From: Spiroplasma endosymbiont of Amphimallon solstitiale
Lineage (GTDB): Bacteria; Bacillota_I; Bacilli_A; Mycoplasmatales; VBWQ01
Direction of reading: 5' to 3'
NCBI RefSeq assembly: GCF_964030965.1
Contig: NZ_OZ034999.1
Coordinates: 1,178,001-1,242,000, forward strand
Length of the DNA stretch: 64,000 nucleotides
Positions 2,395 through 46,312 of this stretch are shown here, piece after piece. The translations under genes were made by a program, and so were the position numbers. Numbering within the stretch: the first letter of the stretch is position 1; every line of letters begins with the position of its first letter. Below the pieces are notes generated by a model. That model was not told the origin of the DNA. It did no database searches and saw only the letters and a program-made list of their open reading frames with translations.

Positions 2395-2536
2395 TTTTAT
2401 TTTGTTTTTTAAGTGCTTTTTTATTAGGGTCTTTTAATGATTTTCCAAAAGAAATTAAAGCACTTCCTAATTTTACTAATACATAACCACCACTAATACA
2501 AGCATTAGCAATAATTATAATTAAACTTGTATCCAT
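2395..2536 (-). pseudogene. Phage-1 small membrane protein, truncated by IS256
   Basis: The first 47 codons match the intact 68-aa gene at 46073-46279 (MDTSLIIIIANACISGG...). The IS256 at 1021-2394 replaces the C-terminal basic tail, and the frame reads on into the IS. One N-terminal membrane segment (residues about 3-28) is followed by a lysine-rich stretch. Holin or another lysis role is possible from size and position but not demonstrated. Confidence 0.8.
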
Positions 2537-2555
2537 TATATTAATCACCACCTTT

Positions 2556-2678
2556 CTAAAATATTTGATTAATTTTAAATACAATTTTTACAATAACAAA
2601 AATAATTAAACCAGCAACAGCAGAAGATAATATAACTCCAATTAAACCTAAAATAATCTTTATAATTTTAAAAATCAT
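2556..2678 (-). CDS. Phage 40-aa membrane protein
   Basis: Forty residues, almost entirely one hydrophobic segment (KIILGLIGVILSSAVAGLII) with basic ends. The same gene, in the same place after the fibre gene, occurs at 45931-46053 and, in phage 2, at 27032-27154. Conservation in three phages argues that it is a real gene. Role unknown; holin-like or virion membrane component are possibilities. Confidence 0.8.
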   Translation of the reverse strand: MIFKIIKIILGLIGVILSSAVAGLIIFVIVKIVFKINQIF

Positions 2679-2688
2679 AATTTTATTC

Positions 2689-4449
2689 CTACAATTCTTC
2701 TAATTTTCATATATTACCTTTTAAATTACCTTTTCCACTATAAATAGTAATTAATTTTGCATGTTGAACTGATAAAATTACTATATTAACACTATCATTA
2801 AAGGTTTGTATTGGTACACCAGCAATTTTGTTATCCGTTATAATAAATTCTTGAATAGTATAAACTGGATTATATATACTTCAAGAATAATAAACTCTAT
2901 AATGTTTATTAACTATAAAATCATAAGTAATTTGTCAATTATCTCATTTATTTTTTTCTCTTGTTCCTACATCTTTTCATTGTTGATTATTTGGACTTGG
3001 TGTTGGATTATTTGGTAATTCAATATCTCAACAATTTTCTTCAACTTCATTTGTTTCTAAACTTTTTGAATTAATTTTTATTTTTGGTGTAACATCAACT
3101 TTAATTGTATTTTGTAATTCTTCTAATGAAAGAATAGCACCATAATTAATATCTCCACCTTTTAAATATAAACTACAATTAAAACTACTTTCTCTAACAG
3201 TTAAAGTTAATATTACATCTTCATCTTTAATTTTAAATTTTGCAAGTAAATAATCTCCACCTAAATAATTACCAGTTTTAAATTCTACTTTATGCTTTAT
3301 ATTTGCTTGATTTACTGGTAATTCATCTAATGTTATAATTACTCTATATACAGTATTAAAATTAATTTCAAACGTATCTCATTCACGATTATTTTTACTT
3401 TTACTTATTACTTTTCATATTTCTTTATCTTGTTTAGTATTTACTTTATCATCAACATATTTTTTTGTAGTTGCATCTTTATCTTGTTCTGGTTCACCTA
3501 TATTAACAATTCTTTTATTATTAGCAGTAATTAATCTTTTTTCTTTAGGTTGAATAATATTTGAACTATTTGGGTCTATTTCTCATAATGATTCACCATT
3601 AGCACTAATAGTATTAGTTTTTTCATCAATCTTAATATTTTCACCAGCAATTAATTTATCTTGCTTTTGTTCTATTAAATTATCAACATATTCTTTATTT
3701 GTACCATCAGTTTCAAAAGTAGGTGTACCAACATCAATTATTCTTTTACTATTAGCAATAATACCTTTATTATCTTTTAATTTAACAAAATTAAGATTAT
3801 CTTTATCAACTTCTCATAATGAATCAATATTACTATCAACATTTAATTTTAATTTAGGTATAGTATCACTAACATCTTGAATAGTAATACCAGTACCAGC
3901 AATAATTCCTTCTTTTCGTAAAAATGTTTTATTACCAGAATCTCAAGTAATTACTCTTGTATCACTTTCATCAAAAATACTAGGAGTATTAAAATTATCT
4001 GTATTACATGAAATAGGATTATTAATTGCTTTTCTTGGTGTATGTAAATTTGCTTGTTGTAATAAATTATATACTTCCATTAATACATAATCTGGTTCAC
4101 TTGGGGGACTAATACTACTTGATAAACCATTACCACTAATAGATACACTACTTCTTATAAATGCCATTCCATCAGTTAAATAATATATAGTCATTCTTGC
4201 TGTTGCTCTTTTAACTAATTGTTGTTGAGTTTCATTAAGATTTTTAAATCCTATTACTTCAATTTGATTACCAGTAATAGTATTTATACGCTCACTTGCA
4301 ATAGCAATTGCCATAATAGTAAAATCAGTTTTAGTATTATCAGTAGTAGTTTGGTCAGCATCTGGTATAAAACCATATATAGTTTTTAAATCATCTTTTG
4401 TAATATAATTTAAATTTACATTTCAATCAATATTATTTTTGTTTTCCAT
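2689..4449 (-). CDS. Phage-1 fibre / receptor-binding protein
   Basis: 586 aa, intact in this copy. The N-terminal part (about residues 1-140) is compact. The middle is built of repeating trimeric-fibre-type units: NKEYVDNLIEQKQDKLIAGE near residue 250 and TKKYVDDKVNTKQDKEIWK near 340. The C-terminal 200 residues form a globular domain ending EELQE-like, which is strongly shared with the phage-2 fibre (23156-27027). This repeat plus globular-tip layout is typical of phage fibres that bind the host surface. It starts with ATG overlapping the upstream gene by 17 bases. The copy at 43011-45920 is interrupted by IS1595. Confidence 0.8.
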
Positions 4450-5215
4450 AATTTTTAAACCTTTCATATCCATGTACTGCTTGTGATTTATTAACTACAC
4501 CAATAACTGATTTATATTTCTTTTGTTGAATTACTTTTTTACCTATATTTTTAGAATTTCTACGTGCTAAGTATTCTTTATCTTCTTTATCTAATCCGCC
4601 ATGATAATACTGTCTTATAAGTACTGAATTAGCACCGGTACCGTAAGCACCAGTTGCTTTACACATATCAATTCACATTTCTTTTGATATCATAAAGTAA
4701 TCATATGATTTACTTAAATTAGTTCTATATGTTAATGTAGCAATACCATAAGTACTAGACTGTTGTTGTATTACTGGAGTTCATATACCACCTGCTAATG
4801 CACTACTAGAAAGATTTACATAAACTCCAATCATACTGTCATAATCTTCTTGTGTTAAAGAATTCATTATTATTTCTTTACCTTTATCCATTAATGACTT
4901 ACCATTTAAATATTGTTTTTGAATATGTTGTAATTTAGCAATATTATTATTAGTAATATGTGTCATGATTTTTTTATGAATTACTGGTAAATTAGTAAGT
5001 GTTTGAAGATTTTTATTAAAACTATTTAATTCATCTTGTAACTTTCCTTTTCCTAAAGTTTTAGAAAAAATTCTAGTTTTTAATATTCCTGCTGGATTTT
5101 TTAAAAAACTATTAAATAATGAATTACTTTTTTTAAATTTTTCTATTAATTCAGCAGTTTGTATATCAGTAACAGCAGTCTCTAATATCATTCTTAACAA
5201 TAATATAATAGGCAT
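4433..5215 (-). CDS. Phage-1 260-aa structural-region protein
   Basis: 260 aa, immediately downstream of the major capsid gene (5-base gap) and overlapping the fibre gene. The N-terminal 110 residues are helical and lysine-rich; the C-terminal half holds a YDYFMISKEMWIDMCKAT block followed by a glycine-rich GAYGTGANS segment and a basic tail. Position suggests a minor virion or head-completion protein, but I recognise no family. The phage-1R copy (40863-43027) is split by an IS256 insertion. Confidence 0.7.
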
Positions 5216-5220
5216 TTAAA

Positions 5221-6411
5221 TTACTTCTTTGTAAAAGTTACTTGTAAAGAACCATCATATAAAGTTTTACCTTCAACATTAGCACTTGTTGCTGTTAAAT
5301 CTGAAAAATTAGCATTACCTTTAACATAATTAGGATTTTTAGCAATAACTGCTTTTTCTACTTCATCTGCTGTTGGAGTATCACCAGCCATAGTTATTTT
5401 TCCTAAATTAGTAAATTCAATTGCTGTAGCAATATCAATACTTGAAGTAACTGTAAATCCTTTAACTAAATCGGGTCTTAATGCTTTACCTTCTGAAACT
5501 AAAAACTTATGAAAATTCTTAACATTCCCATTAGTTTGTAAAACAAAAATATTATCTTGACCACGATTAAAAGGAAATGCTAATGCTTCTTTATGAACTA
5601 ATACAGCATCACATCCTAAAAAATTAAATCCTTCTTTTTTATCAATAACTCCAGCAGGATAATTTCTACCTAATCAAGGACATTCTACAATTTTAATACC
5701 ACCAATTTCTACGATTTTACCATCTTTTAATGCTTGTGAAGCACTATCACTACCTAATGTAGTTGTTGATAATAATACTAATGGTTTAAAGAAACTAGAT
5801 ACTCATAATGTATAATCTTCTTCATCTGTACCAATATATTCATCACTAATTCTTGCTTTTAATGTTGCTAATGTATTTGATATTTTTAATCACAAAAGCA
5901 TACGATAATCATCAATTTTTGGTGTACTTGGTAATGCAATTTTAATAATGTCGTTATCTTTTGCTGTTTTAACTGCTAATGATAATAATTTTGCTACTAA
6001 ATATGTTTCAACTGATTTTGCTTTAGCATCAATTCAACTTGATGCTAAACTATCTGATACAAGAACATTACCATCTTCATATTTTGCACCTAATCTTTTT
6101 AAATCTAATGTTTCTTCTTCAAAAGTAATTTGTTTCTTTTTATCTAGTAAAATTTGTTCAACTCTTGTTGCTGTTAAATCATTAGCACCAGCACCAGCAT
6201 TATAATCATCTGTAAGATTTCTTTTTGTAATATTATAAATAGCAGTACCAGCATCTAATTGTTCTCTATTTTCTATTGTAGCATTAATTAATGCAACTCT
6301 TTTTGATAATAAAACTTTTAAATTTTTAATATATTTTACTGATAAATCTGCTTTACCACTAGGTGTACTAGGGTCATTAATTGTTGTTGATTGTGTTGTA
6401 ATAATTGCCAT
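5221..6411 (-). CDS. Phage-1 major capsid protein with spiralin-like tail domain
   Basis: 396 aa. Call rests on position directly after an acidic scaffold-like protein, on length, and on an HK97/P22-type mixed alpha-beta composition; I see no single diagnostic motif. The last 60 or so residues (TPTADEVEKAVIAKNPNY ... YDGSLQVTF) resemble repeat modules of Spiroplasma spiralin and other surface lipoproteins, which would be an appended surface domain. Site AAAGGAGAATAAAAATG. The copy at 39667-40857 gives the same translation where I compared them. Confidence 0.75.
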
Positions 6412-6413
6412 TT

Positions 6414-6638
6414 TTATTCTCCTTTAATTTGTTTTCAATCATTTATTAGTTGTTTTTGAAAATTAATTAGTTTTTCTAAATCAATATTACTTGCTTTATA
6501 TTCAATAATAAGTTTTTCAATATTATAGTCTTCTGGTAATACTATTTTAGTACTTCTAGTAATTTTAAAAATATCAGGATAATCTCTTTTAATATTTTCA
6601 TATTTTTTATTAAATTCTTTTAATGTCATATTAACCAT
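6414..6638 (-). CDS. Phage-1 74-aa protein between scaffold and capsid
   Basis: 74 aa (MTLKEFNKKYENIKRDYPDI core), overlapping the end of the scaffold gene by 8 bases and ending two bases before the capsid start. A second in-frame ATG at 6629 could be the true start. Identical to 39440-39664. A protein of similar size and place (19296-19481) precedes the phage-2 scaffold. No function recognised. Confidence 0.7.
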
Positions 6639-7119
6639 CTACCATTCCTATTTTTCTAGTATCTACTTCATCTTCTTTATTTTCTTTAAATTTATCTTTT
6701 ATATCTAAAGAATTACTAATATTTGTATCTTTATTTTTATTAAATAAATGTGGAAAATCTTTATTTAAATTTGATAATTCTTCATCAATATCTTCTTTAT
6801 CACCAAGATATCTTTTTAATAAATTAATATTTTCTTGTGATAAATCATATTTTTTATAACTTTCTGAATGTCTAATTTCTCTATCTTTATCAGTTTTTTC
6901 TTTATATAAAGCATTATATTTTTCTTCTAATTCTTTATATTTTTCTTCTAAAGTTGGTTCTTTAGTTTCTTCAGTTTCTGGTTCTTTTTTCTCTTCAGAT
7001 TCAGATTCTTTTTCAGTATTTTCTTCTGATTTTACTTCTTCTTCCTTAGTTTCTTCTTGTTCATCTTTTTCTTTTTCTTCCATAGTATTACCTTCTTTCA
7101 TTTCATTTTCATTTAACAT
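6631..7119 (-). CDS. Phage-1 scaffold-like acidic coiled-coil protein
   Basis: 162 aa, with a glutamate/lysine-rich stretch (residues 10-60) and coiled-coil heptads around residues 60-85 (EEKYKELEEKYNALYKEK). Location just before the capsid gene and composition fit an internal scaffolding protein that guides capsid assembly. Start chosen at the ATG at 7119 because AAAGGTGGTGG lies 6-9 bases upstream; the GTG upstream falls inside that site. Confidence 0.75.
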   Translation of the reverse strand: MLNENEMKEGNTMEEKEKDEQEETKEEEVKSEENTEKESESEEKKEPETEETKEPTLEEKYKELEEKYNALYKEKTDKDREIRHSESYKKYDLSQENINLLKRYLGDKEDIDEELSNLNKDFPHLFNKNKDTNISNSLDIKDKFKENKEDEVDTRKIGMVDG

Positions 7120-7135
7120 AATTACCACCACCTTT

Positions 7136-9961
7136 CTAAGTTGAACTTTTTGGATTTATGACCAATGATGTAGTTTGTAAGTTTCAATTAGCATTCGTTT
7201 TAACAAGAGGTAATCCCATGCTAAATGTAAAAGTTACAATAAATTGATATCTTAGTACTATATATTTATTAAAACTAGTATAACCCACTATTTTAAATCA
7301 AATTGATGAAGCAATTGTATTTTCTCGACTTAAATTATCATTTGTTCATAATAAATCATTAACATAAGTATTATTAATATTATCTGTTGCTTTTAAAGTT
7401 GCTGATTGACGAGGATATTTATCGTGGGATTTTTTTTCATTAATAATATTAAATGTTCAATTATCTGTAGCATCATTATGATTCCCAGAATTATTATCAT
7501 AATAATTAACATGTGATTCAAATTGTGGATTATTCTCATTAATATCTTTTAATTCACTTAAATTAATTTTTATAGGTGTAAACCAATTTTTTGAATTTGT
7601 TACTGTTTCATAAATTGCGTTCATATTAAAATTAAAATTAAATGTTATACTTTCATAATCTTCTTGAAATTTTTCAAAACTATCATAACCATAATCTTTA
7701 AATGAAAATAATACTGCTTTACCATAACCACTTAATTCATCATTTATATCAGGTCTCATCTGATAAGGATAATTTGGTCTTATATCACGTGAACCTTGAA
7801 TGTTATTTGTAATTCCATATTGACTTTGATTACTTAAATCAATAAATATAGGATGTGCTCTTTCTATTAATGGGGGTGGTTGAATTGCTTGTGGATAATT
7901 AAATGGTTGGTCAAATTTAAAAGTATTATTTGCTAAAATAAATGTATTTTGAATTAATCTACTATTATTACTTGCTTTACCTACTGTTTGATAAGTACCA
8001 CTTCAAATACTAAAATTATCATTAACAGCACCATTTCTATTATCTGGCATTGAATAAAATGTTATTTTAAAATTACTTTTACCTACAACTTTAATATCAA
8101 TCATATCAATTGCTCATTTTAATATATTAGTATCAGTAAATTTAGGTTCATTTAATAATGGAATTAAACTATTTTCTTTTGGTAATAATGAAATTGTATC
8201 TTTATCACCAGCACCATTTTGAACTAAATTTACAGTATCATAAATTCCTTGTGAAGAAATACTTCCATCATTAATATTAAAATTTTGTAAATTAATCCTA
8301 TCAGTTAAATTAAATGTAAATGATGTCATATGACTTGCTGTTCCAGCAACTGCTTGTATAGCATCTGGAGTATCATTTCTAAAGACATCTAATGGAATTA
8401 ATGCTGGATTAGTACTTTGTGAACTATATAATAATGTTGTATAAAAATTATATAATTCAGCAGATATTAAGCCATTTATATAAGGAAATTGTGGTATTAA
8501 TAAATTACTTGATAATTTAGCACCAATATCTAAACCACCAACAAAAGCATTCATAAATGAACCAAATATAGGTATAGTATTAAGATTAATTTTAATAGTT
8601 TCTCTTACTGTTAAAGGTATTTCACTAATAGGATTATAAATAAAATAATGTAATGCATTTATAGTATTTAATTGCTTAAATTTATTATTATTCATATTAT
8701 AATGATTATTACCAATAAATTTTTTATTATTTTTATTATAATATTGAAAATATGGATTACCAGCAGTTGCATAATTATAATCTTCTATTTCAGCACCATT
8801 TAAAAAATTATTATCTCAATAATTTACTAATCTATTTGAAACATCAACTTTATTAGTATTTTTAGTTTTTTCAACATTAGTTCTTAAATGACCTTCATAA
8901 TGTTTTGTTGCTCCATCATCATAATTTGGAGAAATTACTTTTTGTCAATCTTGATAACTATCCATTGTACTTTCACCACGTACAGTTAATACATAATTAG
9001 TTTCTGGTAATGCTTGAAAACTTACTGGGTCATAAGTTGAACATTGATATTGTCATGGAAATAATAATTTACTTGGGTATTGTCGATATTTATGTTGTTT
9101 AGTATTAATAGGATTATTATCAATATCTCTACCTCATAATGCTATTGAAATAGGTTTTACTGAACCATAAAAAGATATTTGACAATGAGTTACTGGTAAT
9201 GGTGTTAAATAATTATCATCTAAAACAATATTATTATTTTCATCCAATGTTGGTAATGCTACTGGGTCGCCCGGCGCCCCTAATTGTACATATTGATTAA
9301 TTGCTAATCCACTATGTGCTAATTTATCATTTAATGAACTAAAAGTACATTGAATAAAAGCCAATTCTTTATTTTCTGGATTATAAGTTTTAGTTGCAAC
9401 TTCAAGAATATATCATTGTCTATCAACTTTAATTGATTTATCAGTATTTATAACTTTATTAATTTCTGGAATCATATATAACTTATATAAATTTGAAACA
9501 ATATTATTAATAAAATCAAAATTCTTTTTTTCATTTGGAATATTAATAACTACATTTTTAATTGCTTGTTCTTGAATAAAAGCATTATTTGCTGGTGTTG
9601 CTGAATAAGTAATACCTAATTGGTCACTTATAATATTTCCATAAAATACATCACCAATTTGTAATTGTTTATATGCTAAATCTGGATTATCTTTATCTTG
9701 AATAGGATAATAAGAATGGTCTCATACTGCTTGTATTGCTTCTCTACCAGTAAAGATTTTACTAAAACTAGTATAATCATTAGGAATTGAAGTTGGTGGT
9801 TTATATCCCGTTTCTGTTGAATTTATAGCACCTAAAATAATAGTAAAAGGACATACACGAAATTGTAAATCTTTATTTTGTGTAAAATCTTTTTCAATTT
9901 CACCAGTTGATTTTCAAACTGTTTTAATTAATTGATGATTTATTTTCGGTATCATTCTCAT
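7136..9961 (-). CDS. Phage-1 large tail/knob-like structural protein
   Basis: 941 aa, the largest gene of the phage, between portal and scaffold. Near residues 465-500 there is a hydrophobic, glycine-rich stretch (PIFGSFMNAFVGGLDIGAK) inside an otherwise beta-rich, Asn/Tyr-rich protein. Short-tailed phages such as phi29 have a tail-knob protein with membrane-active hydrophobic loops; that analogy is inference from layout only. The phage-1R homologue (35984-38935) is conserved in the first third but strongly diverged after about residue 260 and shorter (926 codons once its MITE is removed). The start overlaps the portal gene by 38 bases. Confidence 0.65.
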
Positions 9962-11225
9962 TTTTAGTTTCTCCTAAAAAAGTATTATTAAATTCAATTT
10001 CTTCTTTTTGATATTTTCTATTTTCATTAATAATTTGTTGTGCTTCTTCTTCACTTACACCATATCTTTTAACTATAATTCTTTTAATATTAGTAATTCC
10101 TAATCTTAATTCTGCTTCATCAATTTCAAGTGATTTTAATCTATCTATAATAGTATTTTCTTTAATTTCAAATGTTCATTTAGATTTATCACCATCTAAT
10201 CCCATTAATATAAAACATCTTTGAAATATTTCATTTCAATCACTTTGATTTAAAGTTCTTTTAATTCTTGTAGTTTCCATATCTCTTGAATTAGTAATTA
10301 ATACTTCTGCTTCAGTTTTTTGACTTGTAGTATCATTTACTGGACTATATCCAGCACCTTCAAATGTTTTATCAATAATAAATTGTATAAAATCCGCATA
10401 TTTATCTAATACTGGACTACCTTGTATTATGGCAATTGGCGGTGTACCACTAGTACTTCCTAAACTTCTTAAATTTGTTTGTAATACAAAATCACCAAAT
10501 AATTTTTTCATGTCAAATGCAGTTTTAGTTTGATTTACTTCTTGTTCAGTAATATCAGCAAATACTCTTGTACGATTATATTCAAGTTCTTTTCATATCA
10601 TTTCAAAAGTATGGTTTAATAATTTTTGTAAACCTTTAATTGGAGTCATATCTGGATAATAATCACCAATAACTCCACCAAAGAAATTCTTTTTAGGTAA
10701 ATTTTGCATAAATTTAACTGGAATAATCCCTAAATTATGGTTTTCTATTAAAGGTAATTGTAAATCTTTACTTATTTTTTCTTGTAAACCATCTAATGTA
10801 ACTGTATCACTCGTAAAATATCTAATTATTTGATTTGGTGTATATGTTGTTTTAACAAATATACTTTGGTCATCATATTGTATTCTTGACCATGTTGATG
10901 CACTATATTCAGTTTCTAATACTCTTGCTACTCTTGATTGAGCATATGGTTGAGCAAAATTTAATGAAATTCTACCAGTTTTACTTTTATCAATTTGAAC
11001 AATACTATAACCATAACCAGATTTAATATGACAATCTTGATAAAATAATGAATCTAAATTATTTCATTCTTTTAATTTTTTAATTGCTCTTTTATATTCT
11101 TCATGTTCACTTGTTAAAGTATAACCATTACCTCATAATAATTTACTTCCATGATTTGCTATTATTTCTTGAAGATTTATCAGACATCAAAATGGTATTA
11201 ATATTTCAGTATTAGGATTATTCAT
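9924..11225 (-). CDS. Phage-1 portal protein
   Basis: 433 aa, directly after TerL (3-base gap), the classical place of a portal. It shows typical portal features: N-terminal alpha/beta domain with KSGYGYSIVQ, a stem-like helical region, and a C-terminal QRCFILMGLDGDKSKWTFEIKE-type block (shown here without further extension) followed by an acidic/basic helical tail. Portals form the dodecameric DNA channel at one capsid vertex. The 1R copy (34720-36021) has the same length and differs at scattered residues. Confidence 0.82.
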
Positions 11226-11228
11226 ATG

Positions 11229-12581
11229 TTACTTCCTTTCAAAATAAGGATTTATATCTGCACTTAAATTTCTAATATATGGTTCTATAGCATAATCAAA
11301 TGCATCACGTAAATGGTCATTACCCGCTAATGGTATTTGTTTAATACTTTTAGGGTCTCATACAGCCAATCTAAATTCATCTAATAATGCTTGTGCATTC
11401 ATACTAATATTTAAGCGTTCTGAAGCCATTAAAGCCAAATTCTTACCTATTCTAAACTCTAACCTTAACTTCACACAATCTTTAAAATATAGCCATGAAT
11501 TAACTTGATATTTAATTGCTGTATCATTTAACATTTCAATAAATGTATAATTACTAAAATCACAATATACAGTTAATCCATATTCATATAACAAATTATT
11601 TTCTTTTGCTAATTTAATATAAAACTCAACTACTAATCTTGCTAATTGTTTATTATCATAACGTACTAATTTATTTTCTATTTTTAAACAATCAATAACA
11701 TTAACAAATTTAAAATTATAATCAAAACCTATTAATAAACATGCTAAAGCATCATCTTTAAACCCATAATCTAATCCAGCACTAAATCTATAACTTGGTT
11801 GTAATAATCTACTAATCTTATGAATAAGATGTGAATATATTCCACCAGATTCATAACCTACTAAACCATGACTTCTTACTCTTGCAGATATCGGGTCTAG
11901 AACTTCTATTTCTAATAATTGATGTTTATCACTATCTTTTAAATGAGTATTTAATTTTCAATTTTGATAATGATAAATGGTATTATCAATAATAGTAAAT
12001 TGTTCATATTCATTAATAATTTGTTTTTCATTTTGTGGACAAGCATTTATAGTTTTTTTAATAAATTCATTTAAAATACTTCAAGGATTACAACTTTCAA
12101 TTTCTAATAATTGATTTGCTCCACGAATAGCATCTTTTAAATCTTGATAATCATTTTCAGTAATTTCATATCTTTCATCACTTCATATAATTACATAATC
12201 ATATAAATAATTACTTGCTAATCCAGTTAATTTAACATTACTATTATCTTGTGAATGTAAATATTTACAAGTTATTTTACTACCATTAAATTCAATAGTT
12301 TTTTTAGTTTCACTAATAATAAAATTAATTGATGGATATGTTGCTTTAATAATTTGTTTTAATTCTTGTCAACTATCATTTAATTGTTTTGACATATTAC
12401 GAATTAAATAAGCATGAATATTAATATTTTCTAACATTAATAAAATACCAAGAAATTCAATATCACTAAATGTTTTACCAGATTTACGACTACCTAATTG
12501 TTTAATTTTAGTAATATTTAAAGGTTGTTTTAAATACATTCTTTTAGCAATATCTAATAAATAACCAAAATTACTTAACAT
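11229..12581 (-). CDS. terL: Terminase large subunit
   Basis: 450 aa. Walker A-like GSRKSGKTFS at about residues 30-39, a Walker B-type YDYVIIWSDE near residue 130, and the C-terminal nuclease motifs SAGLDYGFKDDA (about 270) and VYCDFSNYTF (about 350). It powers DNA packaging and cuts the concatemer. It overlaps the end of the small subunit gene by 7 bases. The copy at 33364-34716 has the same length with few changes. Called phage TerL of PBSX/Terminase_3 type, subfamily uncertain. Confidence 0.92.
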
Positions 12582-12970
12582 TTATTCTTACCTTTATTTT
12601 CTAGATTAACTTGTATAAGGGCTGTATTATCATTACTTTTTATATCAATTTTTGTAGATAAATGATATTCTTTCACAAATGCTCTTTCTAAATATCATGC
12701 AGTATTATTTGCATTTACTTTTAAATATCTTTGTGTATTAATATGGCGTATTTGTAAATATGCTCAATTAATTTGTTGTAAAAAAGTATTTCTCTTTTTT
12801 TGTTTTCAACTATAAAGAGTATTTTCAGTAATATCTAAATAAATTAGCATACCAACTTTCGTAGGTATTTCATCAAACTCTTTACAATGAATAAAATAAT
12901 TTTCTAATGCTTCTCTTAATTTTGTAGCATCATTAAAAATTGTTCTTATTTTTATTTTTTCTTCTTGCAC
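12575..12970 (-). CDS. terS: Terminase small subunit
   Basis: 131 aa DNA-recognition subunit, first gene of the late operon. It contains a helix-turn-helix-like start (TKVGMLIYLDITENTLYSWK, residues about 29-48) common to TerS N-termini, followed by helices and a C-terminal tail. Start: the upstream ATG at 12988 overlaps AAAGGAGA, which is itself the ribosome binding site, so I use GTG at 12970. The homologue is at 32975-33370. Confidence 0.82.
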
Positions 12971-13130
12971 ATAAAAATCTCCTTTCATATGCTTTAAAAA
13001 ACGAAAAATTATGATATAATTAATATAATCTTTAAGTTAGAATTCGCTAGTAATAACTTATTAACTTTATTAATTACTTCATATATTTTTTTATTTAATT
13101 TTTATAATATAATTATAACAAAAAATAGCA

Positions 13131-13295
13131 TTATACTGCTATTTTTTTATTTTTTCTTCTTTTATTTTTAATTTTTTTTATTAAATAATCTATTAAACAT
13201 CACATAATACCTAGTCCTATTACACCTACACCTATCAATAATCATTTAGGGTCTTGGCCATGATGTTCAATATTTGTTAAGTACTGTCCTATCAT
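13131..13295 (-). CDS. 54-aa membrane protein
   Basis: One membrane segment (LLIGVGVIGLGIMWCLIDYLI, shown as its core, residues about 19-38) followed by a lysine/arginine-rich tail. It occupies the position between the transposase and TerS that in copy 1R holds a different, 139-aa membrane protein (32392-32811). A weak hairpin (AAAATAGCA/TGCTATTTT, 13122-13148) at its end could terminate transcription. Function unknown. Confidence 0.6.
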
Positions 13296-13354
13296 TTTTT
13301 ATTTTCCTTTTCTATTTATATTTTTCTTTATTGTACATTATTTTATTAAAAAAG

Positions 13355-13382
13355 AAAAGATAACTAATAAAAGTTATCTTTT
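13355..13382. terminator. Bidirectional hairpin between divergent genes
   Basis: Perfect 11-bp stem AAAAGATAACT / AGTTATCTTTT with a 6-base loop and A/T runs on both sides. It lies upstream of both neighbouring genes, so it does not end either of them. The same hairpin occurs at 32305-32332 beside the other transposase. It may isolate the divergent promoters from read-through or mark an element end. Confidence 0.7.
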
Positions 13383-13390
13383 AAACGTAA

Positions 13391-13405
13391 ATAGAATTTG
13401 CAGTT
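13391..13405 (+). repeat. Transposase-flanking direct repeat, left pair, copy a
   Basis: ATAGAATTTGCAGTT occurs here and at 14830-14844, 111 bases upstream and 126 bases downstream of the transposase gene. The right transposase has its own pair with a different core (AACTTGAAAATTCTAT in that orientation). Confidence 0.8.
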
Positions 13406-13515
13406 TATTTTATCGTTCTTTAATATTATACTCTAAAACCAAACATTTTTCAACAATATTTTAATAAATTTGATATATTTAAGGTGCGAAAATAAATATA
13501 GAAAGGTATTAAAAA

Positions 13516-14703
13516 ATGTTTAGTTTTAAAGAATTTCTAAAATCTGAAATCACTAATATTTTAGCAAAATATTTTCAAAAAATCCATGATTTTGATGAAT
13601 ATTTTTTTCAAAATAGAGATAAAAATCAATATAAAGTTGCTTGAACCTGTAATAGAACAGTAAATACTCCAATTGGAATTGATACTTTTAGACAAAGAGT
13701 TTATTGAGATACAATTAATAAAAAACATTATTATCCAATTTATGAAGAATTTGGTATTAAAAAAAGAGCAAGAATTACTAATGATTTATATTTTGAAATA
13801 TTAGATAATTTAATTGAAAATTTAATAAGTAAAAAAGGTTATTTTAATATTCAATCAGAATTTAAATATACTTCTTTTTCTAAAAATCTTATTTCAAGGA
13901 TTTTTAAAGATGCAAAAATTCCAAAATTAATACCAGAACAAAAATTTAAAGTATTAGATAATCAAAAATTAAATATATGTGCAGATGATGCTTATATAAC
14001 TTGTTGAGATGAAAATGGTTTAAAACAGCAATATTGTTGTAGACTTTTAACTTTTAATCTTGGTAGAAAAAAAATTTATTCATATAGAAATAAATTAGAC
14101 AAGAAAATAACTTCATTTATGTTATTTAAAACTAATAATGCACCAAAACAAGAAGAATTACATAATTTTACAATGCAAACTATTAATAATCATTATGATA
14201 TTAAATTAAATATATTTGCTATTAATTGAGAATATAATAATTATAATTTAGTAGTTGCTGGTGATGGGGCATTATGAATTAGAGCAATGGCTAGTTGATT
14301 GGGTTGTTATTATATTTTAGATAAATATCATGCTTATAGTTATTTATGAAAATCTTTTGTTAATGTTCGTGGTAAACATCAAAAGAAAGCACTTGATTGA
14401 ACAAAGTATTTAGATGTAACAACTACTTTTTCAAATGGTAATTATAATGGATTAATTACTATTTTAGAAAATAATCATAATAAAGTTACTAAAAAAACTT
14501 ATAATTATTTTAAAAATAATGAACAAGGAATTATTAATCAAAATGCTGATTGAAATATTGGATGTTCTGCTGAAAGTGATGTTTATCATTTTTTAAAATC
14601 TTTAACTAATGGAGCAAAAATATATCATCATCAAACATTAAATAATATGTTAATAGCAAAAGCAAATTATTTAAATGCTAGAAGTTATTTGAATAGTACT
14701 TAA
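13516..14703 (+). CDS. ISLre2 / Mbov_0401-like transposase, copy L
   Basis: 395 aa. Recognised from the UPF0236/ISLre2 (Mbov_0401 family) pattern: N-terminal NLISKKGYFNIQS region, acidic residues in CADDAYITCWDENG, then VVAGDGALWIRAM followed by YYILDKYHAYSYLWK, and a C-terminal GCSAESDVYHFLKSL block. These give the D...D...E arrangement expected of this DDE-type family. It stands divergent from the phage-1L late operon and reads toward phage 2. I infer it integrates or mobilises the phage, because no tyrosine or serine integrase is present. RBS AGAAAGGTATT before the ATG. Confidence 0.8.
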
Positions 14704-14829
14704 TAAGTTAAAACTTCATATTTTTAAAACCTAATTTTAAGATTAGTATTTTTGTGTTATTTAAATGTAATTTTGAAATTATATTTTTAACTATTTATAC
14801 ATTTTATGATATAATTTAATTAACAAATC

Positions 14830-14844
14830 ATAGAATTTGCAGTT
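14830..14844 (+). repeat. Transposase-flanking direct repeat, left pair, copy b
   Basis: Second copy of ATAGAATTTGCAGTT. Its surroundings (AATTAACAAATC before, ATATTGT.AATGTTA after) are conserved, in inverted orientation, at 30842-30880. These matches stop abruptly on the phage-2 side. Confidence 0.8.
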
Positions 14845-14864
14845 ATATTGTTAATGTTACTCAT

Positions 14865-15095
14865 AATTCTAAGGGTTAATCTCATACGTCCTTGTCAAAG
14901 TTACGAAATAATTAATTATTATATTAGTAACTTATTTCCAAAAATGAATTATTTGAAAAATAATGAAAATTAGACAAAATTACTCTCTTTAACCCTTAAA
15001 TTTATATTCGACGTATTTTAAAAAATATACATTTAAAAAAAATTATTCTCAAACTTATTAAGGAAAAAGACAAGAAATAATCTTGTCTTTTTTTG
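14865..15095 (+). ncRNA. Candidate pseudoknotted RNA with terminator
   Basis: No open frame. Helix A TAAGGGTTAA (14870-14879) pairs with TTAACCCTTA (14989-14998); helix B ATACGTC (14884-14890) pairs with GACGTAT (15010-15016), crossing A and so forming a pseudoknot. A third helix AAGTTAC/GTAACTT (14898-14904/14927-14933) sits inside. An intrinsic terminator AAAGACAAGA/TCTTGTCTTT plus T run closes the unit at 15066-15095. Family not recognised. A regulatory or packaging RNA is possible. Confidence 0.55.
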
Positions 15096-29428: not shown

Positions 29429-30841
29429 ATGGAAAACAACAACAACAAACCACAAACGAAGTTTCCACAGAAACAGAAGCAAACTAAACTTAATCAAGCA
29501 GAAGTAGAAAATGATTATTTAATTGATAATATTCCTTATGATTTTACTAATATGATGGGTGCTACTAGTGATCCTGATATTAATAGAGCATATGATGAAT
29601 TTAAAAAAAGAACAATTTATATTTATGAAATTGAACGTTTATTTAAAAATAATGAAAATAATAGTTTAAGATTTTCAGCAAATACTATTAAAATTGGTTT
29701 TATTGATATTGAGAAAGTATTAAAAACTACTGCTGTTGAAACATCAGACTTTACTATGCAATTAAATCAAAGAGCAAGTACAAACATTAATGATAATACT
29801 ATTGAATATAGTATGACTGATATTAAAAATTTAATATTTCAAGAAATAAATTTATTAAATCAATTTAAGTTATATGCTGTATCTATTAATGAACCATTAA
29901 CTGAAAATAATATTGATAATTTATATATCATTAATAATTATTCACAACCTTATCAAAATCCAAAAACAAGAAGTACTAAAAGTATAACTATTATTAAAAT
30001 TAAAGATTTTAAAACAAGAGATGGTTATCCAATCATTATTAAATTACAAAAACCATTAGATAAAGATACCAAGGTTATTGGTTTAAAAATTAAAGCCCCT
30101 AGAAGCATGATTTTTGGCAATATAAAGGTACTTGGTGAAGTTGACAATATGGAAGTATACCCAAAGTTATTTGTCAAAGATAAGATAGCATTTCCACTAT
30201 TATCAATGCCTATTGAAACTCAACCAAAAGTTAGAATTTTACAACAATGATTTAGTGAACAAATATTACCTTGAAAATTAGCAAAACAATTTATAGAACA
30301 AGAAAAATCAGTTTTAGATTTAATTAAAATTAGTAGTGGAACTGAAACAAGAAAAGAAGTTATTAAAAATGCAAGAGTAACACATGCTTGACTAGGTTAT
30401 GAGATGGGTACTGTTTGAGATGGTAAATGACCATTAAAGAAACAAAAAGAATTAAAAGATAAAGAAGTTTGAAATTTTGCGGGTGAAAGTCAATTTTATC
30501 AATATGTTGCAACTAATAATAAATTTGATGATATTGAAATTGAAATAAAAGACGCACCAACTAATGATAGCTTACAGCAACTATTATTAAATATGCTAAG
30601 TTATACATATAACTATAATAGAAATTTTGATGGAGCAGAATATGATGAAAAAGGTAAACCCAATAATAAAATGGCAGAATTACGTGATAAATTTTCAGGA
30701 CAAAAACCTGATGAAATCATTACTAATTTATTTAAACAATGGGAATTTGAATATCCAAATTATATAAACCTATTACAAATTAAAATATTTAAACAAGTAT
30801 TTATTATGGGACGTATGAGATTAACCCATAGAATTCAATAA
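29429..30841 (+). CDS. Phage-2 470-aa structural-region protein
   Basis: 470 aa following the portal-like gene, with site AGGAGAG. Polar N-terminus (Asn/Gln/Lys), beta-rich middle, and a C-terminal domain starting near residue 270 (WFSEQILPWKLAKQF). No family recognised. By position it may be a neck, collar or tail protein. It is the last phage-2 gene: 13 bases after the stop the conserved repeat region of the next transposase begins, so anything that once followed (for example a terminase) is absent. Confidence 0.6.
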
Positions 30842-30853
30842 CATTTACAATAT

Positions 30854-30869
30854 AACTTGAAAATTCTAT
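30854..30869 (+). repeat. Transposase-flanking direct repeat, right pair, copy a
   Basis: AACTTGAAAATTCTAT, repeated exactly at 32281-32296. It lies 127 bases beyond the transposase stop. Flanking sequence is the inverted counterpart of 14815-14860. Confidence 0.8.
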
Positions 30870-30995
30870 GATTTGTTAATTACATTATACCATAAAATTT
30901 AAAAATACTAAAAAATATAATTGTAAAATTACATTTAAATAACACAAAAATTCTAATCTTAAAATTAGAATTTAAAAATATTAAGTTTTAATTTA

Positions 30996-32171
30996 TTAAG
31001 TACTATTAAGATAACTTTTAGAATTTAAATAATTTGCTTTTGCAATTAACATATTATTTAAGGTTTGATGATGATATATTTTTGCTCCATTAGTTAAAGA
31101 TTTTAAAAAATGATATACATCACTTTCAGCACTACAACCAATATTTCAAGAAGCATTTTGATTTACAATACCATGAGCATTATTTTTAAAATAATTATAT
31201 ACTTTTTCATTAACATTAGGTTTTAAAAAAGAAAGTAATTGATTACAATCACCACTTGCAAAAGTAGTAGTACCATCAATATATTTTGTTCAATCATGAG
31301 ATTCTTTTTTCTTACCTTTAACTCCAACAAAAGATTTTCATAAATAACTATAAGCATGATATTTATCTAAAATATAATAACATCCCAATCAAGTAGCCAT
31401 TGCTTTAATTCATAATGCACCATCTCCTGCAACTACTAAATTATAATTATGATATTCTCATTGAACACCCAATATATTTAATTTAATATCATAATGATTA
31501 AGAATAGTTTGTGTTGTAAAATTATATAATTGTTCTTGATTTAAACCATTACCAGATTTAAATAATAAAAATGAAGTTATTTTATTTTGTAATTTATTTC
31601 TATATGAATAAATTTCTTTTTTTCCTAAATTAAAAGTTAAAATTCTACAACAATATTGCTGTTTTAAACCATTTTCATCTCAACAAGTAACAAAAGCATC
31701 ATCTGCACATATATTTAATTTTTGATTATCTAATACTTTAAATTTTTCTTCTGGTATTCATTTTGGAATTTTTGCATCTTTAAAAATTCTTGAAATAAGA
31801 TTTTTAGAAAAAGAAGTATATTTAAATTCTGATTGAATATTAAAATAACCTTTTTTACTTATTAAATTTTCAATTAAGTTATCTAATATTTCTAAATATA
31901 AATCATCAGTAATTCTTGCTCTTTTTTTAATACCAAACTCTTCATAAATTGGATAATAATATTGTTTATTAATGGTATCTCAATAAACTCTTTGTCTAAA
32001 AGTTCCTATTCCAATTGGAGTATTTACTGTTCTATTAACTCTTGAATCAATTTTATATTGATTTTTATCTCTATTTTGAAAAAAATATTCATCAAAATCA
32101 TGGATTTTTTGAAAATATTTTGCTAAAATATTAGTGATTTCAGATTTTAGAAATTCTTTAAAACTAAACAT
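30996..32171 (-). CDS. ISLre2 / Mbov_0401-like transposase, copy R
   Basis: 391 aa, homologous over its length to the gene at 13516-14703 but clearly diverged in the middle (for example GKKKESHDW for GKHQKKALDW) while N- and C-terminal parts are nearly the same. Key blocks CADDAFVTCWDENG, VVAGDGALWIKAM and GCSAESDVYHFLKSL are kept. It is divergent from the phage-1R late operon and reads toward phage 2, the mirror image of copy L. Confidence 0.8.
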
Positions 32172-32280
32172 TTTTTAACACCTTTCTATTTATTTTTTTG
32201 TCCTAACTATTCTAACAAATTTGTTAAAATATTGTTGAAAAATGTTTGGTTTTAGAGTATAATATTAACAAACGTTTAAT

Positions 32281-32296
32281 AACTTGAAAATTCTAT
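32281..32296 (+). repeat. Transposase-flanking direct repeat, right pair, copy b
   Basis: Exact second copy of AACTTGAAAATTCTAT, 110 bases upstream of the transposase start and next to the hairpin at 32305-32332. Confidence 0.8.
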
Positions 32297-32304
32297 TTAC
32301 GTTT

Positions 32305-32332
32305 AAAAGATAACTTTTATTAGTTATCTTTT
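32305..32332. terminator. Bidirectional hairpin between divergent genes
   Basis: AAAAGATAACT / AGTTATCTTTT, same as 13355-13382 and at the same distance from the transposase. Confidence 0.7.
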
Positions 32333-32391
32333 CTTTTTTAATAAAATAATGTACAATAAAGAAAAATGTAAATAGTAAAGGAAAATAAAAA

Positions 32392-32811
32392 ATGCAAATA
32401 TTATGATTATGAATATCTTTAGGAATAATAGGAGTAATTATTTGGATTTTATTAATAAAATATGGAATTAAATATTGTAATAAGAATAATGCCATAGGGA
32501 TAGTAATGCTATTTATTGCTTTAAATATATTAGGATTAGTTATTGGATGAGCGATTTTATGAAATAATCAAAATATTTTGAAAGGTAATTTTTGAAAAAA
32601 TGCTGAAAAATTATCGAAGATAAGAGAAGAAAGAAGACAATATAAAAAATCAATAAGAGAAGAACAAAATAAATTTACCGCAAAAAAATATAGAGAATGA
32701 AGAGAAAAAAGAATTAAAGAAAAAGAAGAAAAAAATAAACTTAAGGCTAAAGACTATAGAGAATGAAGAGAAAAAAGAATTAAAGAAAAAGAAGAAAAAA
32801 ATAACAATTAA
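32392..32811 (+). CDS. 139-aa membrane protein with basic tandem repeat
   Basis: Two hydrophobic segments (residues about 3-25 and 37-56) followed by a highly charged cytoplasmic-type tail in which a unit YREWREKRIKEKEEKN occurs twice (residues about 99-114 and 121-136), encoded by a 60-base direct repeat. It replaces the unrelated 54-aa protein found at the same place in copy 1L. A hairpin AACAATTAATTTGTT plus T run at 32804-32826 ends it. Function unknown. Confidence 0.65.
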
Positions 32812-32974
32812 TTTGTTATTTTTTGTTATAATTATATTATAAAAATTAAATAAAAAAATATATGAAGTAATTAATAAAGTTAATAAGTTATTTTTTCAGC
32901 AATTCTAACTTAAAGATTATATTAATTATATCATAATTTTTCGTTTTTTAAAGCATATGAAAGGAGATTTTTAT

Positions 32975-33370
32975 GTGCAAGAAGAAAAAATAAAAATAAG
33001 AACAATTTTTAATGATGCCACAAAATTAAGAGAAGCATTAGAAAATTATTTTATTCATTGTAAAGAGTTTGATGAGATACCTACTAAAGTTGGTATGTTA
33101 ATTTATTTAGATATTACTGAAAATACTCTTTATAGTTGAAAACAAAAGAAAAGAAATACTTTTTTACAACAAATTAATTGAGCATATTTACAAATACGCC
33201 ATATTAATACACAAAGATATTTAAAAGTAAATGCAAATAATACTGCATGATATTTAGAAAGAGCATTTGTGAAAGAATATCATTTATCTACAAAAATTGA
33301 TATAAAAAGTAATGATAATACAGCCCTTATACAAGTTAATCTAGAAAATAAAGGGAAAAATAAATGTTAA
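32975..33370 (+). CDS. terS: Terminase small subunit
   Basis: 131 aa, same protein as 12575-12970 with one or two changes. GTG start chosen because AAAGGAGA lies 8 bases upstream; the ATG at 32957 would bury that site in the gene. The conserved 150-base leader before it contains TATAAT-like boxes (TTGTTATAATTATATTAT, 32822-32839) that could be the late promoter. Confidence 0.82.
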
Positions 33371-34716
33371 GTAATTTTGGCTATTTATTAGATATTGCTA
33401 AAAGAATGTATTTAAAACAACCTTTAAATATTACTAAAATTAAACAATTAGGTAGTCGTAAATCTGGTAAAACATTTAGTGATATTGAATTCTTAGGTAT
33501 TTTATTAATGTTAGATAATATTAATATTCATGCTTATTTAATTCGTAATATGTCAAAACAATTAAATGATAGTTGACAAGAATTAAAACAAATTATTAGA
33601 GCAACATATCCATCAATTAACTTTATTATTAGTGAAACTAAAAAAACTATTGAATTTAATGGTAGTAAAATCACTTGTAAATATTTACATGCTCAAGATA
33701 ATAGTAATGTTAAATTAACTGGATTAGCAAGTAATTATTTATATGATTATGTAATTATATGAAGTGATGAAAGATATGAAATTACTGAAAATGATTATCA
33801 AGATTTAAAAGATGCTATTCGTGGTGCAAATCAATTATTAGAAATTGAAAGTTGTAATCCTTGGAGTATTTTAAATGAATTTATTAAGAAAACTATAAAT
33901 GTTTGTCCACAAAATGAAAAACAAATTATTAATGAATATGAACAATTTACTATTATTGATAATACTATTTATCATTATCAAAATTGAAAACTTAATAGTT
34001 ACTTAAAAGATAGTGACAAAAATCAATTATTAGAAATAGAAGTTCTAGACCCAATATCTGCAAGAGTAAGAAGTCATGGTTTAGTAGGTTATGAATCTGG
34101 TGGAATATATTCACATCTTATTCATAAGATTAGTAGATTATTACAACCAAGTTATAGATTTAGTGCTGGATTAGATTATGGGTTTAAAGATGATGCTTTA
34201 GCATGTTTATTAATAGGTTTTGATTATAATTTTAAATTTGTTAATGTTATTGATTGTTTAAAAATAGAAAATAAATTAATACGTTATGATAATAAACAAT
34301 TAGCAAGATTAGTAGTTGAGTTTTATATTAAATTAGCAAAAGAAAATAATTTGTTATATGAATATGGTTTAACTGTATATTGTGATTTTAGTAATTATAC
34401 ATTTATTGAAATGCTTAATGATACAGCAATTAAATATAGGGTTAATTCATGGTTATATTTTAAAGATTGTGTGAAGTTAAGACTTGAGTTTAGGATAGGT
34501 AAGAATGTGGCTTTAATGGCATCAGAACGCTTAAATATTAGTATGAATGCACAAGCATTATTAGATGAATTTAGATTGGCTGTATGAGACCCTAAGAGCA
34601 TTAAACAAATACCATTAGCAGGTAATGACCATTTACGTGATGCATTTGATTATGCTATAGAACCATATATTAGAAATTTAAGTGCAAATATAAATCCTTA
34701 TTTTGAAAGGAAGTAA
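33364..34716 (+). CDS. terL: Terminase large subunit
   Basis: 450 aa, intact. ATPase motif GSRKSGKTFS, Walker B-type YDYVIIWSDE and nuclease motifs GLDYGFKDDA and YCDFSNYTF as in copy 1L; scattered substitutions only. Overlaps the small subunit gene by 7 bases. Intact terminase genes in both copies mean packaging functions may still be made even though virion genes are broken. Confidence 0.92.
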
Positions 34717-34719
34717 CAT

Positions 34720-36021
34720 ATGAATAATCATAATACTGAAATATTAACTCCTAATTGATGCATGATAAATCTTCAAGAAATTATAGCAAATCATGCAAGT
34801 AAATTATTATGGGGTAATGGTTATACTTTAACAAGTGAACATGAAGAATATAAAAGAGCAATTGAAAAATTAAAAGAATGAAATAATTTAGATTCATTAT
34901 TTTATCAAGATTGTCATATTAAGTCTGGTTATGGTTATAGTATTGTTCAAATTGATAAAAGTAAAACTGGTAGAATATCTTTAAATTTTGCTCAACCTTA
35001 TGCTCAATCAAGAGTAGCTAGAGTATTAGATACTGAACAAGGTGCTTCAACATGGTCAAGATTACAATATGATGACCAAAGTATTTATGTTAAAACAACA
35101 TATACTCCAAATCAAATAATTAGATATTTTACTAGTGATTTTATTACTTTAGATGGTTTACAAGAAAAAATAAGTAAAGATTTACAATTACCATTAATAG
35201 AAAATCATAATTTAGGTATTATTCCAGTTAAATTTATGCAAAATTTACCTAAAAAGAATTTCTTTGGTGGAGTTATTGGTGATTATTATCCAGATATGAC
35301 TCCAATTAAAAAATTACAAAAATTATTAAATAAAACATTTGAATCAATTGAACATGAACTTGAATATAATGTTACTCGTGTATTTTTAGATATTACTGAA
35401 CAAGAAATAAATCAATCTAAAACTGCTTTTGATTTAAAAAAATTAATAGGTAAATTTATTTTACAAGCAAATTTAAGAAGTTTAGGAAGTACTAGTGGAA
35501 CACCACCAATTGCAATATTACAAGGTAGTCCAATATTAGATAAATATGCAGAATTTATACAATTTATTATTGATAAAGCATTTGAAGGTAGTGGCTATAG
35601 TCCAGTAAATGATACTACTAGTCAAAAAACAGAAGCAGAAGTATTAATTACTAATTCTCGTGATATGGAAACTACAAGAATTAAAAGAACTTTAAATCAA
35701 AGTGATTGAAATGAAATATTTCAAAGATGTTTTATATTAATGGGATTAGATGGTGATAAATCTAAATGAACATTTGAAATTAAAGAAAATACTATTACAG
35801 ATAGATTAAAATCATTAGAAATTGATGAAGCAGAATTAAGATTAGGAATTACTAATATTAAACGAATTATAGTTAAAAGATATGGTGTAAGTGAAGAAGA
35901 AGCAGAACAGATTATTAATGAAAATAGAAAATATCAAAAAGAAGAAATTGAATTTAATAATACTTTTTTAGGAGAAACTAATAATGGGAATGACACCAAA
36001 ACAGAATCATCAATTAATTAA
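34720..36021 (+). CDS. Phage-1 portal protein
   Basis: 433 aa, intact; homologue of 9924-11225, with differences concentrated around residues 185-215 and at the extreme C-terminus (NNGNDTKTESSIN here). Overlaps the knob gene by 38 bases in another frame. Confidence 0.82.
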
Positions 36022-38935: not shown

Positions 38936-38958
38936 AAATTAGAAAGGTGGTGGTAATT

Positions 38959-39447
38959 ATGTTAAATGAAAATGAAATGAAAGAAGGTAATAATATGGAA
39001 GAAAAAGAAAAAAATGAACAAGAAGAAACTAAGGAAGAAGAAGTAAAATCAGAAGAAAATACTGAAAAAGAATCTGAATCTGAAGATACAAAAGAACCAG
39101 AAACTGAAGAATCTAAAGAACCAACTTTAGAAGATAAATATAAAGAATTAGAAGAAAAATATAATGCTTTATATAAAGAAAAAACTGATAAAGATAGAGA
39201 AATTAGACATTCAGAAAGTTATAAAAAATATGATTTATCACAAGAAAATATTAATTTATTAAAAAGATATCTTGGTGATAAAGAAGATATTGATGAAGAA
39301 TTATCAAATTTAAATAAAGATTTTCCACATTTATTTAATAAAAATAAAGATACAAATATTAGTAATTCTTTAGATATAAAAGATAAATTTAAAGAAAATA
39401 AAGAAGATGAAGTAGATACTAGAAAAATAGGAATGGTAGATGGTTAA
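38959..39447 (+). CDS. Phage-1 scaffold-like protein
   Basis: 162 aa, acidic then coiled coil, nearly the same as 6631-7119 (a handful of changes in the Glu/Lys stretch). ATG at 38959 preceded by AAAGGTGGTGG. Confidence 0.75.
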   Translation: MLNENEMKEGNNMEEKEKNEQEETKEEEVKSEENTEKESESEDTKEPETEESKEPTLEDKYKELEEKYNALYKEKTDKDREIRHSESYKKYDLSQENINLLKRYLGDKEDIDEELSNLNKDFPHLFNKNKDTNISNSLDIKDKFKENKEDEVDTRKIGMVDG

Positions 39448-39664
39448 TATGACATTAAAAGAATTTAATAAAAAATATGAAAATATTAAAAGAGATTATC
39501 CTGATATTTTTAAAATTACTAGAAGTACTAAAATAGTATTACCAGAAGACTATAATATTGAAAAACTTATTATTGAATATAAAGCAAGTAATATTGATTT
39601 AGAAAAACTAATTAATTTTCAAAAACAACTAATAAATGATTGAAAACAAATTAAAGGAGAATAA
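39440..39664 (+). CDS. Phage-1 74-aa protein before capsid
   Basis: Same translation as 6414-6638; overlaps the scaffold gene by 8 bases and ends 2 bases before the capsid start. Function unknown. Confidence 0.7.
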
Positions 39665-39666
39665 AA

Positions 39667-40857: not shown

Positions 40858-41154
40858 TTTAAATGCCTATTATATTATTGTTAAGAATGATATTAGAGAC
40901 TGCTGTTACTGATATACAAACTGCTGAATTAATAGAAAAATTTAAAAAAAGTAATTCATTATTTAATAGTTTTTTAAAAAATCCAGCAGGAATATTAAAA
41001 ACTAGAATTTTTTCTAAAACTTTAGGAAAAGGAAAGTTACAAGATGAATTAAATAGTTTTAATAAAAATCTTCAAACACTTACTAATTTACCAGTAATTC
41101 ATAAAAAAATCATGACACATATTACTAATAATAATATTGCTAAATTACAACATA

Positions 41155-45930: not shown

Positions 45931-46053
45931 ATGATTTTTAAAATTATAAAGATTATTTTAGGTTTAATTGGAGTTATATTATCTTCTGCTGTTGCTGGTT
46001 TAATTATTTTTGTTATTGTAAAAATTGTATTTAAAATTAATCAAATATTTTAG
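45931..46053 (+). CDS. Phage-1 40-aa membrane protein
   Basis: Same as 2556-2678: one hydrophobic span, directly behind the fibre gene. Confidence 0.8.
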   Translation: MIFKIIKIILGLIGVILSSAVAGLIIFVIVKIVFKINQIF

Positions 46054-46072
46054 AAAGGTGGTGATTAATATA

Positions 46073-46279
46073 ATGGATACAAGTTTAATTATAATTATTG
46101 CTAATGCTTGTATTAGTGGTGGTTATGTATTAGTAAAATTAGGAAGTGCTTTAATTTCTTTTGGAAAATCATTAAAAGACCCTAATAAAAAAGCACTTAA
46201 AAAACAAAATAAAATTAATAAATTACAAAGTAAATTAAATTCTATTAATAAACAAACAGAAGTAAAAAGTATTTATTAA
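46073..46279 (+). CDS. Phage-1 68-aa membrane protein
   Basis: Intact version of the gene cut at 2395: N-terminal membrane segment (LIIIIANACISGGYVLVKLG) and a Lys/Asn/Gln-rich helical tail. Strong site AAAGGTGGTGATT. Last gene of the late operon, followed by a terminator. Holin-like size and topology, not proven. Confidence 0.72.
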   Translation: MDTSLIIIIANACISGGYVLVKLGSALISFGKSLKDPNKKALKKQNKINKLQSKLNSINKQTEVKSIY

Positions 46280-46282
46280 TAA

Positions 46283-46306: not shown

Positions 46307-46312
46307 ACTTAT

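Follow-up and report, generated by a model that had tools for sequence, protein, structure and literature searches.

The paired direct repeats that flank the transposase genes of two prophages in a Spiroplasma endosymbiont are most likely not integration sites: one copy of each pair lies within a predicted small antisense RNA, the other where the transcript that would pair with it begins. Sequence comparisons and folding models make it probable that the two copies are the antisense and target halves of a system controlling the early operon of an integrase-less transposable prophage. The analysis covered a stretch of 64,000 nucleotides (hereafter the window) from the Spiroplasma endosymbiont of Amphimallon solstitiale, and the features discussed are listed in Table 1.

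A sequence-only reading of the window had proposed that each of its two transposase genes is bracketed by its own private pair of repeats, and pattern searches bore this out. The left pair consisted of exact copies of ATAGAATTTGCAGTT and the right pair of exact copies of AACTTGAAAATTCTAT, placed in both elements at −125 and +129 from the transposase gene. When up to two mismatches were allowed, no further match appeared in the window (chance expectation ~0.8–0.9). Across the 2.1-Mb genome, ATAGAATTTNNNGTT was present only in the left pair, in the pair of a third copy of the element at ~1.39 Mb (1392878 and 1394305) and in one transposase fragment; ATAGAATTTNNNNGTT, the version with the four-base core, was present only in the right pair and at one unrelated site. 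The repeats were therefore almost confined to these genes. Comparing the sites beside other Mbov_0401-type genes, a check proposed in the same reading, showed the layout again, with identical or different cores, in further genomes of this genus. More distant Mbov_0401 genes had flanks with short AT-rich matches only, except for an 11-bp matched core at a 46%-identical gene. The whole-genome searches and the conservation across genomes ruled out a chance origin of the repeats.

The search of six genomes yielded ~22 5′ sites and ~29 3′ sites, which fell into four core classes (GCA, TCAA, ACATC and TTTGCTA). The proposal that the core is shared within a pair and differs between pairs, at matching distances from the gene, also held. 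The same class was found at both sites in 13 of 14 elements, a degree of matching reached in 0 of 200,000 permutations, in which related elements are not independent, and the single exception was a broken element in genome G004. GCA and TCAA elements were interleaved on the genealogy of the transposase gene.

The repeats were internal to the mobile unit and did not form its boundary; the unit is the whole prophage. Judging from its ends and gene content, it is a transposable phage of ~17–20 kb, bounded by terminal inverted repeats that match imperfectly and by 8-bp target duplications; the right end (RE) carries an Mbov_0401/UPF0236 transposase, the left end (LE) an exonuclease–RecT operon, and genes for terminase subunits and a portal protein lie inside. 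In alignments, the 3′ flanks of close copies ended in GGGTTAATCTCATACGTCC or a variant of it and then diverged, and the LE end, GGGCGYATCACTTTAAC, was obtained by aligning the right element with the third copy. Target duplications of 8 bp were found for four elements: the right element had CATAATAA, the third copy GCAATAGC, the left element TTGTCAAA and an element of the same-genus genome G002 TAATCATT. The left element had been split by an IS256-associated rearrangement, which moved its LE part to genome positions 1426601–1431433, and its duplication was present at both separated ends. In an empty-site test, a 678-aa open frame was restored when the sequences on either side of the right element were fused and a single duplication was retained. 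Both window transposases scored above the cut-offs of the Mbov_0401 family (NF046004; 202.6 and 196.2 bits against 162) and of the UPF0236 Pfam domain (54.8 and 58.6 against 24.3), and below that of ISLre2 (NF033529; 56.9 and 51.3 bits against 200). The genome contained 53 matches to the transposase protein, most of them distant or broken. Inverted repeats and a duplication of fixed length that enclose a phage genome encoding a DDE-type transposase are the marks of a transposable (DDE) phage. The suspicion that these phages integrate without a classical integrase was therefore right, although the repeats are not the sites at which they do so. No integrase or repressor was recognised among the prophage proteins scanned. 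We rejected a reading of the repeats as the target duplication of a 1.4-kb insertion sequence, since inverted-repeat ends and 8-bp duplications lay elsewhere and the sequence flanking the repeats on both sides was conserved between elements.

Table 1. Coordinates of the prophage, repeat and predicted RNA features in the window.
Feature	Element	Position	Strand	Remarks
Prophage, portion within the window	Left	2395..14891	.	LE part displaced
Predicted ~70-nt antisense RNA	Left	13348..13418	-	Transcript predicted, its 5′ end placed by the promoter; T run after hairpin core 13359-13378
5′ repeat	Left	13391..13405	-	Inside the predicted small RNA, which carries antisense AACTGCAAATTCTAT
Small-RNA promoter	Left	13425..13453	-	TTGAAA-17-TATAAT; 11/12 consensus positions, best of the region
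Mbov_0401-family/UPF0236 transposase	Left	13516..14703	+	
Outward RE promoter	Left	14787..14815	+	TTAACT-17-TATAAT, extended -10
3′ repeat	Left	14830..14844	+	Predicted target site where the RE transcript begins
Right terminal inverted repeat (RE tip)	Left	14873..14891	+	
8-bp target duplication	Left	14892..14899	.	TTGTCAAA; partner at displaced LE, genome ~1431431
Interrupted 678-aa open frame	Around right prophage	29429-30808 and 51041-51705		
8-bp target duplication	Right	30801..30808	.	TTATTATG on the + strand
Whole prophage	Right	30809..51040	.	IS256 insertion included
RE tip	Right	30809..30827	-	
3′ repeat, TCAA core	Right	30854..30869	-	Predicted target site
Extended -10 box of outward RE promoter	Right	30884..30893	-	
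Transposase	Right	30996..32171	-	
Small-RNA promoter	Right	32235..32263	+	
Predicted ~70-nt antisense RNA	Right	32270..32339	+	Transcript predicted; hairpin core 32309-32328
5′ repeat	Right	32281..32296	+	Inside the predicted small RNA
Early operon	Right	46313..50678	-	Exonuclease 49521-50171, RecT 47984-48826
LE intrinsic terminator	Right	50978..51003	-	AAAGAACGATATAACTATCGTTCTTT and T run
LE tip	Right	51024..51040	-	GGGCGTATCACTTTAAC
8-bp target duplication, second copy	Right	51041..51048	.	

Several further observations were made on these elements and on the window. The target TTGTCAAA or its complement recurred at the ends of different elements in different genomes and may mark an insertion hot spot (window 14892–14899; L101, L102, L104, G001:C48, G003:513441 and G005:1366039). 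A repeat of ~164 bp was present inside phage genes at window positions 20637, 20950, 25324, 38441 and 54221; the interrupted upstream frames gained a fixed tail (FNYVEKYGW...) and the downstream frames began with MYHYFSTKLK, as if the insertion supplied them with a new start. In the early operon, the minus strand of window 47522–47612 could form a three-way junction resembling a hammerhead ribozyme (z-score −3.7), with CGAAAC, GUC and CUGAUGAG in place; its score against the Rfam hammerhead was far below threshold, and its CTGATGAGTTC was also present in L032, L072, L074 and L081.

The placement of the two repeat copies pointed to a pair of RNAs. The 3′ copy was located shortly after a predicted outward promoter, beyond the transposase gene and near the RE tip, and the 5′ copy within a predicted small RNA at the head of the divergent late operon. 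Relative to their own promoters the two copies were oppositely oriented, which is what an antisense RNA and its target require. The promoter scan of the region found overall no excess of promoter-like sites; the hairpin of the small RNA was too A+T-rich for the terminator scan, and its terminator was read from the sequence by eye. The predicted duplex between small RNA and leader averaged −23.6 kcal/mol within a class and −13.1 kcal/mol between classes. A second complementary segment beside the core was also class-dependent (AACGAUA of the small RNA with UAUUGUU of the leader; AACGUUUA with UAAAUGUU); its versions at the two sites were complementary yet differed, the 5′ site having C and the 3′ site T, and the spacing was not the same at both. 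The promoters and terminators around the repeats were conserved down to 46%-identical relatives. A short phage RNA with its own promoter, a 3′ end and complementarity to an early leader is predicted here from the sequence. The Rfam search of positions 13300–14900 gave no match at E values up to 1 and so detected no relation to any described immunity RNA. The small variable membrane gene beside the 5′ site was rejected as the determinant of class because it differed among elements of one class. In some TCAA elements (G002:C1:99251 and G002:C4:176785), the 5′ site contained up to three tandem copies of AAGTTATC-type units, which would provide the small RNA with extra copies of part of its pairing segment.

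The target leader acquired a possible function when the two ends of the element were considered together. The RE promoter points out of the element, and its predicted transcript would run into the LE operon only in a form that has RE and LE joined. Behind the LE tip lay a strong intrinsic terminator, a leader of ~360 nt without a clear gene and then the exonuclease–RecT operon. In the predicted fold of the joined leader, the stretch just 3′ of the core paired with the 5′ arm and loop of the LE terminator; the probability of the terminator fell to 0.00–0.07, while that of its arm being paired to the RE leader was 0.83–0.98. In none of five RE/LE combinations from three classes did any of 200 shuffles reach these values; in two of the five, RE and LE shared a class but are not known to come from a single element. 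Masking the stretch that the small RNA would bind brought the terminator back to 0.92–0.95, and masking the core alone gave 0.93, 0.91 and 0.43. The leader centre TATTGT, part of the antiterminator segment, was invariant, whereas the core varied. Explicit cofolding with the cognate RNA restored the terminator for the GCA and TCAA classes and not for ACATC (0.02). As a measure of class specificity, cofolding was rejected because it did not discriminate (off-diagonal values 0.78–0.93), so the claim of class specificity rests on the duplex energies and the covariation. The leader of the TTTGCTA class formed no antiterminator with an LE of another class, and a search for an LE of the TTTGCTA class found none.

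A comparable junction was found in related phages. The two Spiroplasma phage MaM-2019a records (OL689226 and OL689227; ~19 kb) share with the window elements the gene order, a UPF0236 transposase at RE, a RecT-type operon at LE, the LE terminator and a predicted antiterminator; their transposase was only ~26% identical to that of the window. Contigs of this type have been assembled from the DNA of S. poulsonii phage-like particles (PMC12453411). Both records start with the end of the transposase gene, and in both the RE tip is joined to the LE tip through 5 bp (ATTTT or ATAAT), a junction that suggests a circular or concatemeric form. In both, the LE terminator was predicted to be sequestered by the RE leader (terminator probabilities 0.05 and 0.03, reached by 2 of 200 and 0 of 200 shuffles) through an antiterminator of the same kind but of unrelated sequence. 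These junctions and folds indicate that the joined form exists in relatives and that the antiterminator logic recurs with unrelated sequence. In OL689226, a leftward unit by the transposase was predicted to pair with the early leader over ~31 nt (−23.9 kcal/mol; 0 of 300 shuffles); unlike in the window elements, this small-RNA-like unit matches the leader beside the first early frame and not the RE leader. No significant small-RNA target was found in the leader of OL689227 itself. Searches of viral contigs gave neither the joined RE–LE form of the window phage nor any terminase or RecT relatives.

Altogether, we infer that the repeats serve antisense-RNA control of lysogeny or immunity, in the manner of the P4 CI or P1 c4 RNA. 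In the integrated state, the early operon would lie apart from its promoter and be shielded by the LE terminator, the early promoter and half of the antiterminator being placed at one prophage end and the terminator at the opposite one. Upon infection or excision, the joined ends would bring the RE promoter and the antiterminator before the early operon; by the folding model, the RE leader would then pair with the 5′ arm of the terminator and allow transcription into the exonuclease–RecT genes. Pairing of the small RNA with the core and its neighbour would restore termination and turn the early genes off. The small RNA of a resident prophage could in this way silence phages of its own core class, whether they enter from outside or have excised, and it may double as an attenuated leader of the divergent late operon. 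For the full form of this proposal, a lysogeny switch that combines RNA with the geometry of the element and in which insertion itself would silence the phage and a covarying antisense RNA would confer class-specific immunity in place of a repressor protein, we see the chances as evenly balanced.

The same sequence and folding evidence would also accommodate a small RNA and target that are real but control copy number or lytic timing, as in the antisense-controlled attenuation of plasmids, and not superinfection immunity. The position of the small RNA at the head of the divergent late operon agrees with such a role, and so does the presence of two GCA-class prophages in one chromosome; strict immunity would not predict that pair, and immunity is therefore not strict. 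The variation of the core among elements is easier to understand as escape from the RNA of a resident relative, and we regard control of copy number or timing as rather unlikely, although it fares best among the alternatives.

Somewhat less likely still is an option that the sequence-only reading had also offered: the repeats could be binding sites of the transposase, the one on the transposase-promoter side serving autoregulation and the subterminal one at RE end recognition, with both changing together with the residues that read the DNA. The columns that separate GCA from TCAA elements fell into three islands only, namely the 5′ site, transposase codons 41–45 and 70, and RE. The codons (window 13636–13650 and 13723–13725; VAWTC or IDSRV, and K or Q) switched exactly with the repeat class, whereas the rest of the gene followed a different genealogy, and the inner part of the inverted repeats was class-specific and resembled the repeat. 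RNA pairing alone leaves this switch of the protein unexplained. It suggests that the transposase may read class-specific bases, perhaps only those of the inner inverted repeat, and a protein-binding role of the repeats is therefore kept as a possible reading. Against it, no copy of the repeat was found at LE, where the transposase must bind too, and binding sites do not predict the complementary second segment with its unequal spacing at the two sites, the opposite orientation to the two promoters or the antiterminator that spans the junction. Given the antisense geometry, the second segment and the antiterminator, a small RNA and its target fit better than binding sites.

Recombination within one element could homogenise its repeats, which might make them functionless relics of an ancient duplication whose copies gene conversion has kept similar. 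This is very improbable, since the class-separating changes were confined to functional islands at both ends, the C/T difference in the second segment would be erased by conversion, and the surrounding promoters and terminators have been conserved in distant relatives. The repeats might instead be attL/attR-like recombination cores, one of two options offered in the sequence-only reading, with the transposase cassette or the phage excised between them, an explanation that suits direct repeats with a variable core identical within the pair but that is now largely refuted and retains almost no probability: the element ends are inverted repeats with 8-bp duplications elsewhere, no site-specific (tyrosine or serine) recombinase was recognised among the proteins scanned, every 5′ site found in the home genome adjoins a transposase gene or its remains so that no solo deletion product was seen, and the related phages join their inverted-repeat tips.

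The antisense reading has precedents in other phages. In P4 and P1/P7, a short phage RNA (CI and c4, respectively) pairs with the leader of an early transcript and favours its premature termination, and specificity resides in short complementary stretches. The small RNA described here, predicted from sequence and folding to pair with an early leader, would resemble them in this respect. No sequence relation to them was detected in the Rfam search, and the small RNA differs in the proposed use of an intrinsic terminator and of an antiterminator built from both element ends, so that control would need the joined form; it also belongs to a mollicute phage that integrates by a DDE-type transposase. 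Phage Mu likewise integrates by a phage-encoded DDE transposase and produces a 5-bp target duplication. The elements studied here share this mode of integration with Mu and other transposable phages, but differ from Mu in the transposase family, in the 8-bp duplication and in that no protein repressor was recognised.

Non-phage elements offer further parallels. In Tn916, a terminator near one end insulates the element genes from host transcription, and the canT RNA antiterminator, which is processive, probably cis-acting and located inside the element, is needed after excision (PMC11658703). An insulating terminator near one end and an RNA antiterminator for the excised form are predicted here as well; unlike canT, the antiterminator would be a local alternative pairing across the end junction, under the control of an antisense RNA. 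For ICEA of M. agalactiae, the portion of the source drawn on here describes excision and circularisation driven by a Mutator-like DDE transposase without a preferred insertion site, and proposes that circularisation induces the element genes (PMC6030558). A DDE transposase and expression proposed to follow the joining of ends are thus shared with Mycoplasma ICEs; ICEA is conjugative and not a phage, and that portion of the source contains no description of an antisense RNA for it (PMC6030558).

If correct, the proposed switch would account for both the integration and the silence of mollicute phages that lack an integrase, which would rely on a DDE-type transposase and, apparently, on an antisense RNA in place of a repressor protein. 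An element whose antiterminator exists only in the joined form would have a simple means of detecting its free state, and immunity groups could be predicted from sequence by means of the covarying cores.
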